Origin: a virus
DNA: 45,567 nt
IMG/VR virus record: IMGVR_UViG_3300020472_000055
Location: 1 to 45,567 of that record
Strand: one strand, 5' to 3'
In this document: in pieces, positions 5,592 to 27,769 of the stretch
Layout: each line of letters starts with the position of its first letter
Numbering within the stretch: position 1 is the stretch's first letter
Translations under genes and position numbers: made by a program
The notes under the pieces: model-generated
Seen by the model: the letters and a program-made list of their open reading frames with translations, nothing else
What the model was told of the DNA's origin: nothing
Databases searched by the model: none

Positions 5592-6167
5592 TTATCCTAT
5601 TGGTATATTAAAGGACATAATAGTTCTTGGTACATTAGAAGTATTTTGTGGTGATTCATGTAGTAACATTGCAGGAAATAAAATAATATCTCCCTCATCT
5701 ACTTGTGGAACATACTCTTGATTATATCCTGTAAATGGATCATTAAATGGTGAATGAAACCAAGTAGGAGAGTGTACACTTTTATCAAATTGTAGATACA
5801 AAACACAAGATAGATTACCAACTCCATGATTATGACATGAATGATATTGTTGATTGTTATATCTTTGTGACCATAATTGCCATTTAGATGTATCTGTACT
5901 ATTCTTAAGTAGAGGACTAATTACATCAGATTGTTGAAAGATGTTATTAAGATCCTCCTCTAATATCTCACACCATTGTTTAAAGTATGGTGGTCTACCT
6001 TGATTAGAATAGTAATCAGTATGTTGCGGTAATTTAGATTGTACCACATCATCATCACTAAAGTCAAGTAATGATAATAGTTTTGGTTTCTTTTCTTCCC
6101 AGTTTGTAATACTATATTTGAAGATATTTACAGCAAATATAGTCTGTCCCAGTAAATCACTTCCCAT
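5592..6167 (-). CDS. 2OG-Fe(II) oxygenase-like protein, 191 aa
   Basis: Residues 110-125 (SCHNHGVGNLSCVLYL) and 160-189 (GDIILFPAMLLHESPQN, then PRTIMSFN) match the double-stranded beta-helix core of putative 2OG-Fe(II) oxygenases in which the metal motif is H-x-H. Likely ligands are His112, His114 and His170; Arg181 would bind 2-oxoglutarate. Such enzymes hydroxylate proteins, sugars or small molecules; the substrate is not evident. This is the only oxygenase-like gene in the early region, and the family recurs nine more times in the window. Start at 6167 overlaps the upstream gene. Confidence 0.75.
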   Translation of the reverse strand: MGSDLLGQTIFAVNIFKYSITNWEEKKPKLLSLLDFSDDDVVQSKLPQHTDYYSNQGRPPYFKQWCEILEEDLNNIFQQSDVISPLLKNSTDTSKWQLWSQRYNNQQYHSCHNHGVGNLSCVLYLQFDKSVHSPTWFHSPFNDPFTGYNQEYVPQVDEGDIILFPAMLLHESPQNTSNVPRTIMSFNIPIG

Positions 6168-10135: not shown

Positions 10136-10891
10136 TTAATCAGAGTGATACTCTTCCATGTCAATATCAGGATACACCCAAATCTCGTCTTTTTTCCTTT
10201 TTGTAAAATTTCTTAACCTTTCTTCATCTGTGAGTCTTGAAACTCTCCATCCATAATCACCATCACCTACAACATTTGGCATAAAGTTCATTGCAACTGT
10301 TATACGATTTGCTTCAGTATTCTTCTTATATCCATGAACAACTGTAGCAGGGAACAGTAATAATTCTCCTTCATTTGCTTTAATGTGGTCAATCTGATTA
10401 TATCTTGTATTCTTCTCACTTGCAAGGTTAATTGTAGGATTGTCTGGAAATTGCATCAATGATGTATTCTTAACAAAATAAGTTGTAGCATGTTTAGTAT
10501 TATCGTAATTAGCGTAATATACTCCTGAAACTATAGTATTACCATGATAATGTGGTCCTTGAATACCACCTACATCACATATATTAATCCAACTATCTGT
10601 TACTAACATAGTGTCAGATAGATACTTACCCATCACATCTTTAACAAATAATTCTGCTTGTTCTTCTATCCAATATCTAAATCTTTCAAACCTTTGTTGC
10701 TCTAATACAGAGTAATAATCCAAATGATATAGTTCATCAGAATTAGGATTAGCAAGTTCAGGCATAAACTCTCTTGCTCCACCTTTACTCCTAATAGTAT
10801 CAACTTCATCCATAACATGTGCTTTCATTTGCTCATGAAATGGACATGGTATAATTGCTACTGGTTGTGGTAATATAGGAACTACATTCAT
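10136..10891 (-). CDS. 2OG-Fe(II) oxygenase-like protein, 251 aa
   Basis: The core reads QGPHYHGNTIVSGVYYANYD (residues 112-131) and EGELLLFPATVVHGYKKNTE followed by ANRITVAMNF. His114, His116 and His186 are the expected iron ligands and Arg196 the 2-oxoglutarate contact. This belongs to the putative oxygenase family with an H-x-H motif and the SGVYY strand. It carries a longer N-terminal helical segment than the other copies. It sits last in a run of three oxygenase-like genes; the substrate is unknown. Confidence 0.8.
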   Translation of the reverse strand: MNVVPILPQPVAIIPCPFHEQMKAHVMDEVDTIRSKGGAREFMPELANPNSDELYHLDYYSVLEQQRFERFRYWIEEQAELFVKDVMGKYLSDTMLVTDSWINICDVGGIQGPHYHGNTIVSGVYYANYDNTKHATTYFVKNTSLMQFPDNPTINLASEKNTRYNQIDHIKANEGELLLFPATVVHGYKKNTEANRITVAMNFMPNVVGDGDYGWRVSRLTDEERLRNFTKRKKDEIWVYPDIDMEEYHSD

Positions 10892-10893
10892 AC

Positions 10894-11559
10894 TTAAGGT
10901 ACAGGATGTGTCTGTCTTTCTTCAAAAGATTCATCACCATATTTACCATGATATTTACCCTTAGTCTTTGCTAATCTCTCTTCATCCATATACTCCATCG
11001 GGAAAGGTACAGAGTTGAAACTAACAGTTATTCTATCACCTTGAGTATTATTCAATCTACTACCATGTTCTAACCATGATGGAAAGATATATAAATGATT
11101 CTCTTTAATAGGTACATCAAACTCATACTGAGTGTACTGAGTTTGTATTAAGTGCATCTCACACATTTTATATGGAGTTAATGGTGAAATCATATACAAG
11201 TTACCTACATCTCCTTCAGGTAATTGCACATAGAATGCTCCACTTAAGGGAGAACCTTCATGTCTATGTCTATGTGTAAATCCGCCAGGTGGTAATATAT
11301 TGTACCAACTACCGCTTAACATACTGGGGAAATATCCACTCTTATCTGAATAGTCATCCAAACATTGTTGAAATGCGAATAACATTGGATGTGCAATTTC
11401 ATCTCTTAGTGGATCCCATCCACCATGAGAACTAACACCATTAACTGCTAATGAGTGTGGATTAGTTTTACCACTGTCTTTAATATGTTTCTTCCAAGTA
11501 TCAAGATCAGGATGACTTGTTAGATCATATTCTTCAATTAGTGTTGGAAATATGTCCAT
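10894..11559 (-). CDS. 2OG-Fe(II) oxygenase-like protein, 221 aa
   Basis: The signature is PPGGFTHRHRHEGSPLSGAF (residues 91-110) with ENHLYIFPSWLEHGSRLNN and DRITVSFN. His96, His98 or His100 and His165 are possible ligands; Arg176 is the 2-oxoglutarate contact. The opening MDIFPTLIEEYDL is typical for this group (a short strand naming the target loop). ATG at 11559 overlaps the end of the upstream gene (TAATG). Confidence 0.8.
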   Translation of the reverse strand: MDIFPTLIEEYDLTSHPDLDTWKKHIKDSGKTNPHSLAVNGVSSHGGWDPLRDEIAHPMLFAFQQCLDDYSDKSGYFPSMLSGSWYNILPPGGFTHRHRHEGSPLSGAFYVQLPEGDVGNLYMISPLTPYKMCEMHLIQTQYTQYEFDVPIKENHLYIFPSWLEHGSRLNNTQGDRITVSFNSVPFPMEYMDEERLAKTKGKYHGKYGDESFEERQTHPVP

Positions 11560-15691: not shown

Positions 15692-16258
15692 TTATTCCCA
15701 GTTGTTTCCTTTTTGATACCCAAACCATACAATAACGGAGTATCTTACTCCCTTAGTAACAGGTTTTACTTCATGTGGATATAACATATTGCTTGGATAA
15801 ACATGTATTGAGTTAGCATGTTTAGGCATATTTGTATTACCCCAGAAGCAAACTTCTCCTCCTTCATAATCATCATTAATATTAAATGATGCAGTTATTG
15901 ATGCAGCATCAGCATCACAATCAGTATGAATAGAGAGATGTCCACCTACATCATATTTACATAACCAGTATCCTGAGTATTTATCATATAAGGGAGAATC
16001 TGGTGGATTTATCTCAGAATAGTCAGTATATATCTTGGGCATTGTCTTTAACATACCCTTATGAATTAAATAATATATCTCATCATCTTGTTCTAATAAT
16101 ATCTCTCCTCTTTCACCAGTTAGTTTATAATATGCCTCATTATTCCTATCATCTTGATCTCCAATAGGAAACTGTGTGTTATTACATAACTCCAACAATC
16201 TACTATGGTCATGTTCACTTAATACATTATCATAAGTGAATATGTAATCATTAAGCAT
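15692..16258 (-). CDS. 2OG-Fe(II) oxygenase, prolyl-4-hydroxylase type, 188 aa
   Basis: It begins MLNDYIFTYDNVLSEHDHSR. Full catalytic set: LSIHTDCD (His111, Asp113), LYPHEVKPVTKG (His162) and RYSVIVWFGY (Arg172), as in the P4Hc domain. GGEVCFWGNTNMPKH lies between, a typical 'GGE/T' strand of the family. It is among the most convincing catalytic copies in the window. ATG at 16258 overlaps the stop of the upstream gene; an upstream TTG frame is less likely. Confidence 0.85.
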   Translation of the reverse strand: MLNDYIFTYDNVLSEHDHSRLLELCNNTQFPIGDQDDRNNEAYYKLTGERGEILLEQDDEIYYLIHKGMLKTMPKIYTDYSEINPPDSPLYDKYSGYWLCKYDVGGHLSIHTDCDADAASITASFNINDDYEGGEVCFWGNTNMPKHANSIHVYPSNMLYPHEVKPVTKGVRYSVIVWFGYQKGNNWE

Positions 16259-17042
16259 TAGGTCCGCCACTTCCACCAATAAAATAGTCCCAATGTATAA
16301 AACCAGATAGATTAACTCTTGGAAAATCTTTATACCATCCCTGTTTCATTACAGCAGTATGCCATAAGTATGATGGATATAATACTAATCTATTAAACTT
16401 CATATCTACATGATGATACTCATCATATACTGGTTCAATACTTGAAGTATCCAGTGATACTAACTCATTCCTCTTATCTCTATGAAAATCATATAACCAT
16501 TCTTTGTAATTCCAATACTGTTCCGATCTCCTAAATGTCTTATCTACATGCTCCATGTTACTTTCACCAGTATGTTCATGGTTAAAGAATGAAGTACCAC
16601 CATGACAATCCTGTGGTGCATTTAAGTATAGAACATAAGCAAACATAGCAGGATCAATATGAGGTTGAACACTGATTCTCTCAGTCTCAACATCACTGAA
16701 CATGACATTTATTTGATTAGATATAGTTAAATTATCAGGATCATTTACCTGAAACTCTGTATATTCATTGATAAAATGAGAGACCATTCTGCGTAACTCC
16801 GTCATCTCAAATCCAATGGTGGATGAGAAGCCTGGGAACACTACATCTTGGTCTTTAGGTTTATTCCTTTCTAATGGCATTTGCTGAACAATATTCTTCC
16901 AGAACCCTTCAGGATTCTTGAGAACGTTGTCAACAACTACAATGGGATGATTCTCTTTAGGTCCTATTCTATACCCATCATAGTATAAATCTTCGGATAT
17001 CTTTAAGTCATCCTGATTAACATAATTCAGTAATTCACTCAT
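16251..17042 (-). CDS. DUF6445-like putative oxygenase, 263 aa
   Basis: The opening HPIVVVDNVLKNPEGFWKNI, central VQPHIDPAMFAYVLYLNAPQ and distal LVLYPSYLWHTAVM followed by PRVNLSGFIHW are a pattern of the cupin/2OG-like DUF6445 group. His128, Asp130, His228 and Arg242 occupy the positions of an iron-2OG site. It is longer than the other copies because of a charged insert (residues 155-200). Its start is 19 bases from an AATAAATAC late-type promoter. Substrate unknown. Confidence 0.7.
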   Translation of the reverse strand: MSELLNYVNQDDLKISEDLYYDGYRIGPKENHPIVVVDNVLKNPEGFWKNIVQQMPLERNKPKDQDVVFPGFSSTIGFEMTELRRMVSHFINEYTEFQVNDPDNLTISNQINVMFSDVETERISVQPHIDPAMFAYVLYLNAPQDCHGGTSFFNHEHTGESNMEHVDKTFRRSEQYWNYKEWLYDFHRDKRNELVSLDTSSIEPVYDEYHHVDMKFNRLVLYPSYLWHTAVMKQGWYKDFPRVNLSGFIHWDYFIGGSGGPNA

Positions 17043-24327: not shown

Positions 24328-25047
24328 TTAGATATATAATAGTTGCGTCATCCTTGAGAAATCAGGATATGAGCCTGGATATAACTCATCTGCATGTAAT
24401 ATTTGCGTCTGAAATAATATAGCACGATTATATCTCATAGGAAATGCATGTTCAGACTTCCATGCGAATGAACCCTTGATACTCATCTCCATACTCTTCA
24501 AATCTTTCTCTGTTTGATACTGACTCCAATTAGGTTTTGGTATAGTCATTTCATTTAAGAAACTATACAAGTCAGTTCCACCACCTGCCATCTTACTTTC
24601 TTCTTCGGTATTTAGATATACTGTAAGTAGGAATTGATAAGGTCGAGGAGCAAATGGATAACTATCCTGATATGGTACAAGTCCCCAAGGTTTATCAACT
24701 AACATACTACCAAGAGTATAATTAAATGTTACTCCTTTATTCTTCCACCCTTCTTCTACATCTTCTCTATTAACAGGTACACCCCACAGTTGTTCATCAT
24801 AAGTAAATTGATCAAATAAAGGTTTCCATTGATGAGTTATTTCTTTAGATGGCATTGAGAATCTCTTACCAACCCCAGGCATCTCCTTCGGGATTGTAGT
24901 TGCCAACAACTCTTTCTCACGACCAAACCTTCTTACCTTCTCAGGTTCAGCATAGAAGTTATCAATAATTAGTGCAGATATATTCTTACTGGGACCTATC
25001 TCGGTTACCGCAGTAATTTCCATCTTTTGTTGATCAAGTTCAAACAT
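24328..25047 (-). CDS. DUF6445-like protein, probably divergent oxygenase fold, 239 aa
   Basis: The opening SALIIDNFYAEPEKVRRFGR and the closing ILFQTQILHADELYPGSY and SRMTQLLYI follow the plan of the protein at 16251-17042. The metal-binding triad looks incomplete: where H-x-D is expected the sequence reads PYQDSYPF, so the first His is replaced by Tyr. It may be a non-enzymatic binding protein or use other ligands. A GGGTDLYSF strand is kept. It is the last gene before the tail fibre. Confidence 0.6.
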   Translation of the reverse strand: MFELDQQKMEITAVTEIGPSKNISALIIDNFYAEPEKVRRFGREKELLATTIPKEMPGVGKRFSMPSKEITHQWKPLFDQFTYDEQLWGVPVNREDVEEGWKNKGVTFNYTLGSMLVDKPWGLVPYQDSYPFAPRPYQFLLTVYLNTEEESKMAGGGTDLYSFLNEMTIPKPNWSQYQTEKDLKSMEMSIKGSFAWKSEHAFPMRYNRAILFQTQILHADELYPGSYPDFSRMTQLLYI

Positions 25048-25216
25048 CGTTAACTAATGATTCCACTGTAGTTTTCACTTTATCCATACATGTAGTCACA
25101 TCCTTATGCGATCCTGTAGTTTGATATGAATCCTTACCTTCAGGTGAATATCTTTGTGTGAATAGTGACCATCTCCACTCATCCATATCAGCGGAGTACC
25201 AGATGTGAACACGCAT
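25040..25216 (-). CDS. Hypothetical protein, 58 aa
   Basis: It begins MRVHIWYSADMDEWRWSLFT. I chose ATG at 25216 because an upstream TTG at 25252 would overlap the 3' part of the tmRNA region. It ends inside the first codons of the next gene. Trp-rich, no family recognised. Confidence 0.6.
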   Translation of the reverse strand: MRVHIWYSADMDEWRWSLFTQRYSPEGKDSYQTTGSHKDVTTCMDKVKTTVESLVNDV

Positions 25217-25295
25217 TTGCTTTACATTTATATAGGGGCATTTCACCCCCAAGGATCAGTTGGGTAACAAGGTTGATCTAAACCCCGATCTCACC

Positions 25296-25370
25296 TTAGG
25301 CAGTAACCAATTCGGTTCTGCGTGAGAATTCTCTCGTCATTACACGAGAGAACGCTACGATGTTATTCGC
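25296..25370 (-). other. tmRNA proteolysis-tag reading frame, 24 residues
   Basis: The tag is predicted to resume at GCG (25370-25368) and reads ANNIVAFSRV, then MTREFSRRTE, then LVTA, ending at TAA. Cyanobacterial tags typically start ANNIV, carry FSR and end in about 14-16 residues with VAA or IAA. This one keeps the start but is longer, repeats FSR and ends VTA. The resume codon is set by homology; the upstream Ala codon is the alternative. Confidence 0.85.
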
Positions 25371-25465
25371 AGCAGTGTCAGATGGTTTTGCATCTGTGGT
25401 TTGCTCATCCGAGCAGGTTTCAGTCATGTTCCTTGTACCCTGTCGAAACCTTGGCACCCCCATGA

Positions 25466-25538
25466 CTGCTCCTGCTGGGCTCGAACCAGCGACAAATTGA
25501 TTAACAGTCAACCGCTCTACCAACTGAGCTAAGGAGCA
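25466..25538 (-). tRNA. tRNA-Asn (GTT), nested in the permuted tmRNA
   Basis: All arms pair: acceptor TGCTCCT/AGGAGCA, D-stem GCTC/GAGC, anticodon stem GTTGA/TCAAT with loop CTGTTAA, T-stem GCTGG/CCAGC with TTCGAGC. Discriminator G fits tRNA-Asn; CCA is not encoded. Four bases (CCTT) separate it from the tmRNA acceptor end and four (TCAT) from the coding-piece start, so one precursor would give both RNAs by RNase P and 3' processing. Confidence 0.95.
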
Positions 25539-25612
25539 AAGGTGGAGGTGAGGGGAGTCGAACCCCTGTCCAGAATATAGGTGACACCACCTACATGCCT
25601 TTTAAAGTCATG

Positions 25613-26134
25613 CTAAGGACTTATCATCACATTACCTGCAATAGTAGTACCAGTACCACCACTGAGAACATAATGTTCTATGAATGATGGGAAGATAATA
25701 ATATCACCAGTATGTAGTTCGGGTCTCCAATCAAGAGTGAAAATTCCATCATACATTGGACCCATTTGTGCCTCTACACGAAATCGATAAGGATTAAGAA
25801 ATACTGTTCTGGATATGTCCACATCCTCATAAAGGATGAAACTCCATTGAGAGAAGGCATGGATGTGAGGATCCTGAAAATCCTTCTCTGTGTAAGTATT
25901 TCTCCAGATCTCATCGATCTTAGCAGCACCATACTTAACTCCAAGAGTATCGATATTCCTACCAATAACCTCAGATAGATGAGCAATAGTATCATTACTA
26001 ACCTGTCTCTGGGTTCTCAGACTTGACATAAGTTGAGACCTAAAGGTAGGTTCCTGACTCTCATCAATTAATGTTATCTTATCAAGATCAACCTTATCTG
26101 TAAAGAAAGGAACTGTAAAGAAATCATGTTTCAT
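25613..26134 (-). CDS. 2OG oxygenase-like protein lacking the 2OG arginine, 173 aa
   Basis: The metal motif DPHIHAFSQWSFILYED (His90, His92) and GDIIIFPSFIEHYVLSGG (His154) match the H-x-H oxygenase group. Where the sibling proteins have Arg two residues before a beta-strand (DRITV), this one has GTTIAG. The pair formed with the gene at 26517-27074 shares this change, so activity on 2-oxoglutarate is uncertain. It stops only a few bases before the tmRNA acceptor piece. Confidence 0.7.
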   Translation of the reverse strand: MKHDFFTVPFFTDKVDLDKITLIDESQEPTFRSQLMSSLRTQRQVSNDTIAHLSEVIGRNIDTLGVKYGAAKIDEIWRNTYTEKDFQDPHIHAFSQWSFILYEDVDISRTVFLNPYRFRVEAQMGPMYDGIFTLDWRPELHTGDIIIFPSFIEHYVLSGGTGTTIAGNVMISP

Positions 26135-26273
26135 CCTTCTTAACTGGTTTCTCGTTCAACATTGGTTTACCAGTCTGTTTTGCAATAAAAGCAGCGAGTT
26201 CGGGAGTCTCTTCCCATTCCCAAGTGGTCTTGCGACCCTTCTTGTCTACTTGTTCCCAAGTTCTTTTAACCAT
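26124..26273 (-). CDS. Small basic protein, 49 aa
   Basis: It begins MVKRTWEQVDKKGRKTTWEW and ends NEKPVKKDET. ATG at 26273 lies just before the end of the upstream coiled-coil gene (8-base overlap); the longer frame is less likely. Function unknown. Confidence 0.6.
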   Translation of the reverse strand: MVKRTWEQVDKKGRKTTWEWEETPELAAFIAKQTGKPMLNEKPVKKDET

Positions 26274-26514
26274 TGTCTCGCTCCCTGTAAAGTTCGTTAA
26301 GTCCCTGCTTAAGAGTGTCAATTTCATTCAATGCCATATCATACTTACCTTCAAGTTGTTTAACTCGGTGGTGCATGTCAGCAATTGCTTGACCGAATAC
26401 TTCTATATTATTGAGTAAATACTCATTTCCAGAAGCAGGTGATGATCCTATAGAGTCTATCGCATCTATGTTATCTTGTAAATGCTGTGGTAGATCTTCT
26501 TTATTAAATGGCAT
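26266..26514 (-). CDS. Coiled-coil hypothetical protein, 82 aa
   Basis: It begins MPFNKEDLPQHLQDNIDAID. Residues 35-80 are a heptad-patterned helix (QAIADMHHRVKQLEGKYDMA), so an oligomer is likely. It lies between two oxygenase-like genes and may bind one of them; this is only context. Confidence 0.65.
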   Translation of the reverse strand: MPFNKEDLPQHLQDNIDAIDSIGSSPASGNEYLLNNIEVFGQAIADMHHRVKQLEGKYDMALNEIDTLKQGLNELYRERDNG

Positions 26515-26516
26515 AA

Positions 26517-27074
26517 TTATTCAAAAAAATTGTCTTCTTGGTTGGGTCTATACTCCATGTATATATTACCAGAAACAGTAGTACCCTCATTCCCTGACAT
26601 CACTTGATGCATAAGGAAAGATGGGAAGATAATTATATGTCCTGGCGGTAGATTAGGTTTGTAATCTAAAGGGAATTCCCCAAGAATACCACCTATCTGA
26701 TTCTGAATCAATCCCATACTGGGATTTATAAAAGAAGTCTTAGATGATACACTCTCATATACAATGAAACTCCATTGAGAATTAGGATGCAAATGAACAT
26801 CCTGAAAATGATGAGGTTGATATCTATTTCTCCATACATGTCCTACCTTGGCATTATCTCCAAGTAATCCTGCAGGACCTAAGTTCTCTTGAATTACCCT
26901 CTCCAATTCCTTCCATGCACGATCAGGCAATTCTAATCTTGTACTAAAAGTAGATGGGACTCCAGCATCCCAAGTAGGTTCAAGATCTTCTGGATCTTCC
27001 TCTGGAATATGAAATTGATCAAGATCAATGGCATCCTCAAATATAGGAATACCAAAGATATATTTACGGTTCAT
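26517..27074 (-). CDS. 2OG oxygenase-like protein lacking the 2OG arginine, 185 aa
   Basis: MNRKYIFGIPIFEDAIDLDQ opens the chain; the core reads QDVHLHPNSQWSFIVYESVS and GHIIIFPSFLMHQVMSGNEG followed by TTVSGNIYMEY. The layout equals that of the protein at 25613-26134, including Thr in place of the usual Arg. I chose ATG at 27074 over a GTG one codon upstream. It likely arose by duplication of its neighbour and may be a paired complex partner. Confidence 0.7.
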   Translation of the reverse strand: MNRKYIFGIPIFEDAIDLDQFHIPEEDPEDLEPTWDAGVPSTFSTRLELPDRAWKELERVIQENLGPAGLLGDNAKVGHVWRNRYQPHHFQDVHLHPNSQWSFIVYESVSSKTSFINPSMGLIQNQIGGILGEFPLDYKPNLPPGHIIIFPSFLMHQVMSGNEGTTVSGNIYMEYRPNQEDNFFE

Positions 27075-27109
27075 CACTCATTCCCCAATCCCATAATGCT
27101 TTCAAAAAT

Positions 27110-27769
27110 TCAAGTATTCGTTTCATTTGGTGGTAAAGCGACTTTCCTCATAAATTTATAAACTAACGTTGCTCTAAGACCACGATAGTTTTCATTAGGA
27201 GGACTGCCATGATGTGGTATATTTCCTTTAAAGAAACATACTCTGCCAGGTTTAGGAGGTACTTCTATCCACTCATCGTTAAGTAGGATCATTGTACTTC
27301 CACCCCAATCATCATACCATACCTTATTGACATAGTAAATAAAACTTAATCCATTATCACAAGGACAATCCTGATGTGGGAGTGTATTGTGAATCCACTG
27401 TTGTCCATTCACTAAGATCTCACCTATCTCCAGATCAAAATCAATACTGTTTATCACAGCATCCATTATCATTTTAAAACATCCATCATTGGCATGAGGA
27501 GATTTGCCAGGAAAAATTTGTTGCTTCAATGCGGCAACCTCTTTCCATTCTGGATCTGCACCTATATCATGTCCATCTTGTGGATAATTACTGGTATGTC
27601 CATAAAACCACCCATAACTATTCATGATTAGATCATCAACATAATGTATGAAATAATCAGGAAATAAATTATCAATCACAAAAACTTGATCCTCAGCAAG
27701 ATTATACTGAGTAAAATCAAGAGATTGTGTATGGAGATCAATGTAATTCATTATATTATTTTGCGTCAT
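27110..27769 (-). CDS. 2OG-Fe(II) oxygenase, prolyl-hydroxylase type, 219 aa
   Basis: A full H-x-D...H...R set is visible: LPHQDCPCDNGLSFIYYVN (His132, Asp134), GGSTMILLNDEW, PPKPGRVCFFKGNIPHHGSP (His186/187) and YRGLRATLVYKF (Arg196/199). The order and spacing fit the 2OG-FeII_Oxy prolyl-hydroxylase domain, which makes a catalytic role likely. The C-P-C after the metal site is unusual. It precedes a run of tail genes and could act on virion proteins, but the substrate is unknown. Confidence 0.85.
   Translation of the reverse strand: MTQNNIMNYIDLHTQSLDFTQYNLAEDQVFVIDNLFPDYFIHYVDDLIMNSYGWFYGHTSNYPQDGHDIGADPEWKEVAALKQQIFPGKSPHANDGCFKMIMDAVINSIDFDLEIGEILVNGQQWIHNTLPHQDCPCDNGLSFIYYVNKVWYDDWGGSTMILLNDEWIEVPPKPGRVCFFKGNIPHHGSPPNENYRGLRATLVYKFMRKVALPPNETNT

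Follow-up and report, generated by a model that had tools for sequence, protein, structure and literature searches.

A complete tRNA-Asn gene nested between the halves of a permuted tmRNA gene in a T4-like cyanophage, and recurrence of the arrangement in other cyanophages

The window analysed here, the whole 45,567-nucleotide stretch of IMG/VR record IMGVR_UViG_3300020472_000055 (45.6 kb), comes from a T4-like cyanophage near S-SSM7 and includes on its minus strand a circularly permuted tmRNA gene of the cyanobacterial type (Table 1). ARAGORN called a permuted tmRNA (tmRNA*) at 25205-25632(-) with a tRNA-Asn(gtt) within it, and cmscan matched both cyano_tmRNA (25627-25235(-), 116.3 bits, E 5.9e-31, model positions 1-288, cut-off 70 bits) and tmRNA_permuted (RF04321, 82.8 bits against a cut-off of 47). 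In the ARAGORN call as well as in the order of the covariance model the acceptor piece precedes the coding piece, which is the circular permutation. The two acceptor strands, CACCUCC and GGGGGUG, form seven of seven pairs including G3-U70, and the tag frame ends at a stop codon and has the cyanobacterial ANNIV core. A preliminary description made from the letters alone had recognised a phage-borne permuted tmRNA with a G3-U acceptor stem and had proposed ARAGORN and the Infernal cyano_tmRNA and tRNA models as a check; both halves and the tRNA were matched. The extent given there, 25262-25612, falls on the correct locus, the full gene (25627-25235) being slightly longer.

Table 1. Features of the nested locus and of the adjoining reading frames, in window coordinates
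Feature	Position	Strand	Basis and remarks
Upstream ORF, 2OG-Fe(II) oxygenase-like	25613..26134	minus	phrog_81; PF13759, 28.4 bits
Permuted cyano-type tmRNA	25627-25235	minus	RF01851 cyano_tmRNA and RF04321 tmRNA_permuted
tmRNA acceptor piece (3' half, transcribed first: P2 strand, T-arm, CACCUCC, A73)	25543..25627	minus	RF01851 and RF04321 alignments, 7/7 acceptor pairing; 5' end approximate, overlapping the end of the upstream ORF
Acceptor 3' strand CACCUCC	25550-25544	minus	A73 at 25543
Spacer CCTT, 4 nt, tmRNA A73 to tRNA U1	25539..25542	minus	sequence, anatomy
Nested tRNA-Asn(GUU), 73 nt, U1-A72, discriminator G73	25466..25538	minus	ARAGORN, RF00005
Spacer TCAT, 4 nt, tRNA G73 to tmRNA G1	25462..25465	minus	sequence
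tmRNA coding piece (5' half: GGGGGUG, TTTCGAC segment, tag frame, terminal hairpin)	25235..25461	minus	RF01851 alignment; terminal hairpin ends at 25235
Acceptor 5' strand GGGGGUG	25461-25455	minus	includes the G3-U70 pair
Tag frame, AKPSDTAANNIVAFSRVMTREFSRRTELVTA followed by a stop	25296..25391	minus	frame as set by ARAGORN; conserved core ANNIVAFSR; stop at 25296; resume codon uncertain
ORF downstream of the tmRNA, phrog_1644 / DUF6445	24328..25047	minus	phrog and Pfam matches

The halves are joined by a spacer of 81 nt, CCTT plus a complete 73-nt tRNA-Asn(GUU) plus TCAT, exactly the anatomy first read from the letters. When the spacer was scanned alone the tRNA was found at 25538-25466(-) with 68.7 bits (E 1.1e-15, cut-off 29); in the whole-window scan it is masked by the Rfam clan filter. 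A start at U1-A72 and an end at G73 are typical of tRNA-Asn, and ARAGORN found no second tRNA in the whole window. A short gene-free spacer is usual, although not defining, for permuted tmRNAs of the cyanobacterial type, and the 81-nt spacer with its tRNA departs from it. The tRNA is intact and lies wholly within the intervening sequence, as in the one published nested case (PMC11915505). The locus can be considered a variant form of the permuted tmRNA gene in which the nested gene is real and well supported.

The upstream ORF ends right at the tmRNA, and room for a separate promoter is not evident; a promoter scan at the locus yielded no more candidates than were found in shuffles. Just past the terminal hairpin of the tmRNA, on the minus strand, the sequence TATATAAATG (25220-25240) looks like a late promoter of the T4 type that could serve the downstream ORF. 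Genes for 2OG-Fe(II) oxygenases are common in cyanophages, and their density in the window is unusual: seven ORFs pass the Pfam cut-off for these families and two more match DUF6445 (5592-6167, 10136-11559, 15692-17042 and 24328-27769, minus strand).

The same nesting was looked for in other cyanophages, as had been suggested, and was found at 15 further IMG/VR loci, with four distinct tRNAs overall. The pattern used, a tmRNA 3' end followed after 85 to 115 nt by TTCGAC, matched 47 IMG/VR loci, 14 of which have a complete tRNA as spacer. Six of these (L017, L032, L042, L050, L051, L052) nest a tRNA-Asn identical to that of the window, one (L028) a different tRNA-Asn, and seven (L027, L033, L035, L037, L043, L055, L056) a tRNA-Tyr. 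All 14 match RF01851, 13 over the cut-off, the exception being L056, which runs off its contig. A second scan of IMG/VR, requiring any tRNA T-arm in the spacer, recovered the same 14 loci and L407, where a tRNA-Asp occupies an 80-nt spacer (4+72+4) between acceptor strands AUGCUCC and GGGGCAU (7/7 pairs), with a P2 match and the tag ANSIVKFQRSAVAV followed by a stop. This divergent permuted tmRNA (L407:4320-4580) is below the Rfam gathering thresholds and is not called by ARAGORN, and was found via the nested tRNA-Asp pattern only. Since psbA is present near both L407 and L028, these too are cyanophages. The flanks of the nested tRNA are short whichever of the four tRNAs is present (2-5 nt on the 5' side and 4-5 nt on the 3' side), the tRNA-Tyr loci having only 2 nt between tmRNA A73 and the tRNA; A73-CCA is encoded in L017, L032, L050 and L052.

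No nesting was found in cultured phages in the phage-record collection, among 101 listed ARAGORN-supported IMG/VR permuted tmRNAs with long spacers, taken as other permuted lineages, or in 34 bacterial contigs with the cyano-type pattern, which does not cover alpha and beta forms. None of these searches gave a longer spacer holding several tRNAs, and a looser scan returned tRNA arrays, with no new nested case among the matches listed. A tRNA-Phe at L067 was rejected as a nested case because the returning acceptor strand is absent. A host origin of the nesting was also rejected: none of the 35 tmRNAs over the RF01851 cut-off in 292 cyanobacterial genomes has a tRNA in its spacer, and the match spans of all 35 (274-317 nt) leave no room for one.

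Two further observations concern the nested tRNAs and the tags. All four distinct nested tRNAs (Asn, Asn, Tyr, Asp) carry GUN anticodons, and tRNAs of this kind usually carry queuosine; the proportion is 4/4 against 27 of 113 background tRNAs of these phages (about 0.003, post hoc). A GUN-anticodon rule was not adopted, as the statistic is post hoc and the nested tRNA of the published case is a tRNA-Ala. At about 20-31 amino acids in the ARAGORN frames, the tags of the phage tmRNAs are long, and many finish with VTA, ATA or ATV whereas those of the hosts end in VAA, a difference that could alter the proteolysis of tagged proteins.

Uninterrupted spacers measure 4-9 nt in about 70 phage loci, and the same tmRNA has a 5-nt spacer in S-SSM7, S-SSM6a, S-CAM1, S-CAM3, Sf-FS3 and the single-cell virus AG-345-P14. 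The closest relative of the window, locus L102 on the 46-kb contig G308, has tmRNA halves 98% identical to those of the window and the spacer CCTTTGCAA. G308 is colinear with window positions 10681-45567 (35 kb) at 84-91% identity, the sole break is located at 25464/25536, and the contig represents a clean empty site for the nested tRNA. L151, sister to a nested locus, lacks a nested tRNA, and its free tRNA-Tyr has the same sequence (100% identity) as the one nested in L027, L035, L037 and L056: one tRNA gene is found both free among clustered tRNAs and within a tmRNA. The bases that precede the nested tRNA-Asp of L407 (CCACCTGGACCC) resemble the Tyr-Asp junction of S-PM2 and S-CREM1 (CCACCTTGACCC in S-CREM1), a likeness that would fit recombination between tRNA-like 3' ends. 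The uninterrupted spacers of L102, L099, L145 and L086, mostly from the tRNA-Asn clade, read (CC)TTGCA(A), like the acceptor ends of tRNA-Asn (TGC...GCA), and may possibly be scars of past tRNA loss, or a coincidence.

On a tmRNA tree the state of the spacer has to change about 10 times, with 8 or more of the changes on starred branches; the bootstrap of this tree has not converged, it contains long branches, and it does not tell gain from loss. That the uninterrupted state is ancestral is argued only from the hosts and the basal phages. The presence of four different tRNAs points to several acquisitions or replacements. In these comparisons the spacer behaves as a slot in which tRNA genes have landed again and again, probably being occupied and emptied repeatedly among cyanophages.

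According to a review (PMC3985003), RNase P and tRNase Z probably process the permuted precursor in bacteria, and the tmRNA of Prochlorococcus was seen as two molecules by Northern blot (PMC1242208). Because the four bases on each side of the tRNA leave no room for a promoter and the upstream ORF abuts the tmRNA, a single transcript is the simplest assumption; the sharing of one transcript, already proposed in the preliminary description, seems close to unavoidable. Such a transcript would fold into a pair of tRNA-like bodies, the inner one seated in the acceptor loop of the outer, and would most likely be converted by the tRNA-processing enzymes of the host into acceptor piece, tRNA and coding piece. 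Host RNase P would make two cuts, one at the tRNA 5' end, which releases the acceptor piece of the tmRNA, and one where the coding piece starts, which releases the tRNA; 3' trimming and CCA addition would then complete the acceptor piece and the tRNA. The products of the one precursor would be a tmRNA assembled from two pieces and a tRNA-Asn that could be charged. The further suggestion that processing of the tRNA sets the 3' end of the tmRNA holds in part: RNase P acting at the tRNA 5' end would cut near that end, but RNase P alone would not finish it since A73 is followed by CCTT with no encoded CCA, so that the acceptor piece would end in A73-CCUU and would need trimming and CCA completion. 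In the minimum free energy structure predicted for the full-length precursor the cloverleaf is nested in the acceptor stem (z -5.1), but competing folds take over once the boundaries are set differently, and they also prevail at about half of the nested loci; folding is therefore weak and mixed evidence for the nesting and we do not rely on it.

The insertion might have broken the tmRNA, leaving the tRNA as the only functional RNA flanked by decaying remnants, and the facts that the host tmRNA could suffice and that nesting is patchy across the tree would agree with such an outcome. However, all seven acceptor pairs are kept in the window and in the 14 pattern-matched nested loci (15/15, with A-U for G-C at pair 5 in two of them). 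Structure cells are paired in 89.1% of cases in nested rows and 90.0% in uninterrupted rows, and two-sided changes among nested rows affect 12 of the 41 pairs, which were taken from the window's own Rfam alignment with near-identical rows at full weight, making these counts supportive rather than formal. In addition, the tag frames are open in the nested loci with complete genes. The complete acceptor pairing, the pairing on par with uninterrupted relatives and the two-sided changes thus argue that the tmRNA is maintained despite the nested tRNA, and a broken tmRNA is improbable. It is very improbable that, conversely, the tRNA is no longer used as such and survives only as a spacer, considering that it has a full cloverleaf, the GUU anticodon and G73, that its sequence is 100% identical across seven phages including the window while the tmRNA halves vary, and that the alternative nested tRNAs are intact as well.

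An assembly chimera or a gene-finder artefact might be suspected because most nested loci are metagenome contigs, but we give this practically no weight in view of the independent nested loci in many datasets, with four different tRNAs, and the covariance scores of both tmRNA and tRNA. Chance or mis-assembly is refuted by the 15 further loci, which come from other assemblies, together with the flanks colinear with the empty-site relative. A more active role would be that of a processing device, the tRNA being kept for its RNase P site and 3' end, from which the tmRNA would take its termini; this would tune tmRNA maturation or couple the dosage of tRNA and tmRNA. The very short and similar flanks in four tRNA types could be understood in this way; yet short flanks are expected when the empty loop itself is so short, and the close relatives L102, L111 and L151 work without a nested tRNA. 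The frequent gain and loss also speaks against such a device, and this high turnover implies that nesting is not needed for tmRNA function. We consider the device unlikely, and are equally doubtful that the spacer is a dedicated dock for GUN-anticodon tRNAs (Asn GUU, Tyr GUA, Asp GUC) whose processing signals would mature the tmRNA and, in infected cells, tie tRNA supply to that of tmRNA.

The locus is probably best explained as a functional-looking permuted tmRNA of the cyanobacterial type with a whole tRNA inserted in its 4-9 nt spacer, one precursor yielding the two-piece tmRNA and tRNA-Asn. The slot would have been gained and lost repeatedly with four tRNAs taken up, most simply as a compact and tolerated extension of the phage tRNA cluster. 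What had been a one-line curiosity is in this way a recurring arrangement, in which several cyanophage lineages hold a stable RNA gene between the halves of another without destroying it. Matched alleles that carry or lack the tRNA occur naturally (84-91% identity across 35 kb); they are suited to the study of permuted tmRNA precursor processing and of the order of the RNase P cuts, and also bear on why tmRNA permutation is tolerated. For annotation, dropping a tRNA that overlaps a tmRNA, or the reverse, loses one of two real genes.

The preliminary description knew of no described case, and in this it fell narrowly short. Nawrocki, Petrov and Williams (2025, the tmRNA database paper, PMC11915505) mention in one sentence, as a unique feature, a single permuted tmRNA whose intervening sequence contains an intact tRNA-Ala, found in GCA-2688965 sp002688965, a nominally archaeal and possibly misbinned metagenome-assembled genome. 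That case, known by its description, shares with ours the intact tRNA gene inside the intervening sequence, but it is single and involves tRNA-Ala, whereas the arrangement described here is recurrent in cyanophages, involves Asn, Tyr and Asp, and has empty-site relatives and covariation. A full-text search of open-licence papers found no other published nested case, and the passages on permuted tmRNAs in a methylophage paper (PMC9004378), which describes them as common in marine phages, mention no nested tRNAs. The recurrence, the phage setting, the variety of tRNAs, the empty sites and the maintenance of both RNAs appear to be unreported.

The two-piece tmRNA of cyanobacteria (RF01851) has in common with that of the window the permutation, the acceptor stem with G3-U70, the T-loop, P2 between the halves and the ANNIV...FSR tag core, but its spacer is short and free of tRNA; the phage tag is longer than that of the hosts and ends in VTA, while host tags (ANNIVRFSR...) share the core. 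The permuted tmRNAs of S-SSM7, S-SSM6a, S-CAM1, S-CAM3, Sf-FS3 and AG-345-P14 are the same gene in the same T4-like family, with a neighbourhood shared with S-SSM7, but unlike the window they are uninterrupted. In the tRNA clusters of T4-like cyanophages the tRNAs also lie a few bases apart, presumably in one precursor cut by RNase P; here one member is flanked by the two halves of another RNA. tmRNA genes also harbour inserts of other kinds, group I introns and integrated elements (PMC11915505), but these are found in the T-loop or at the 3' end, whereas the insert described here lies in the spacer that is discarded and is a gene product in its own right.
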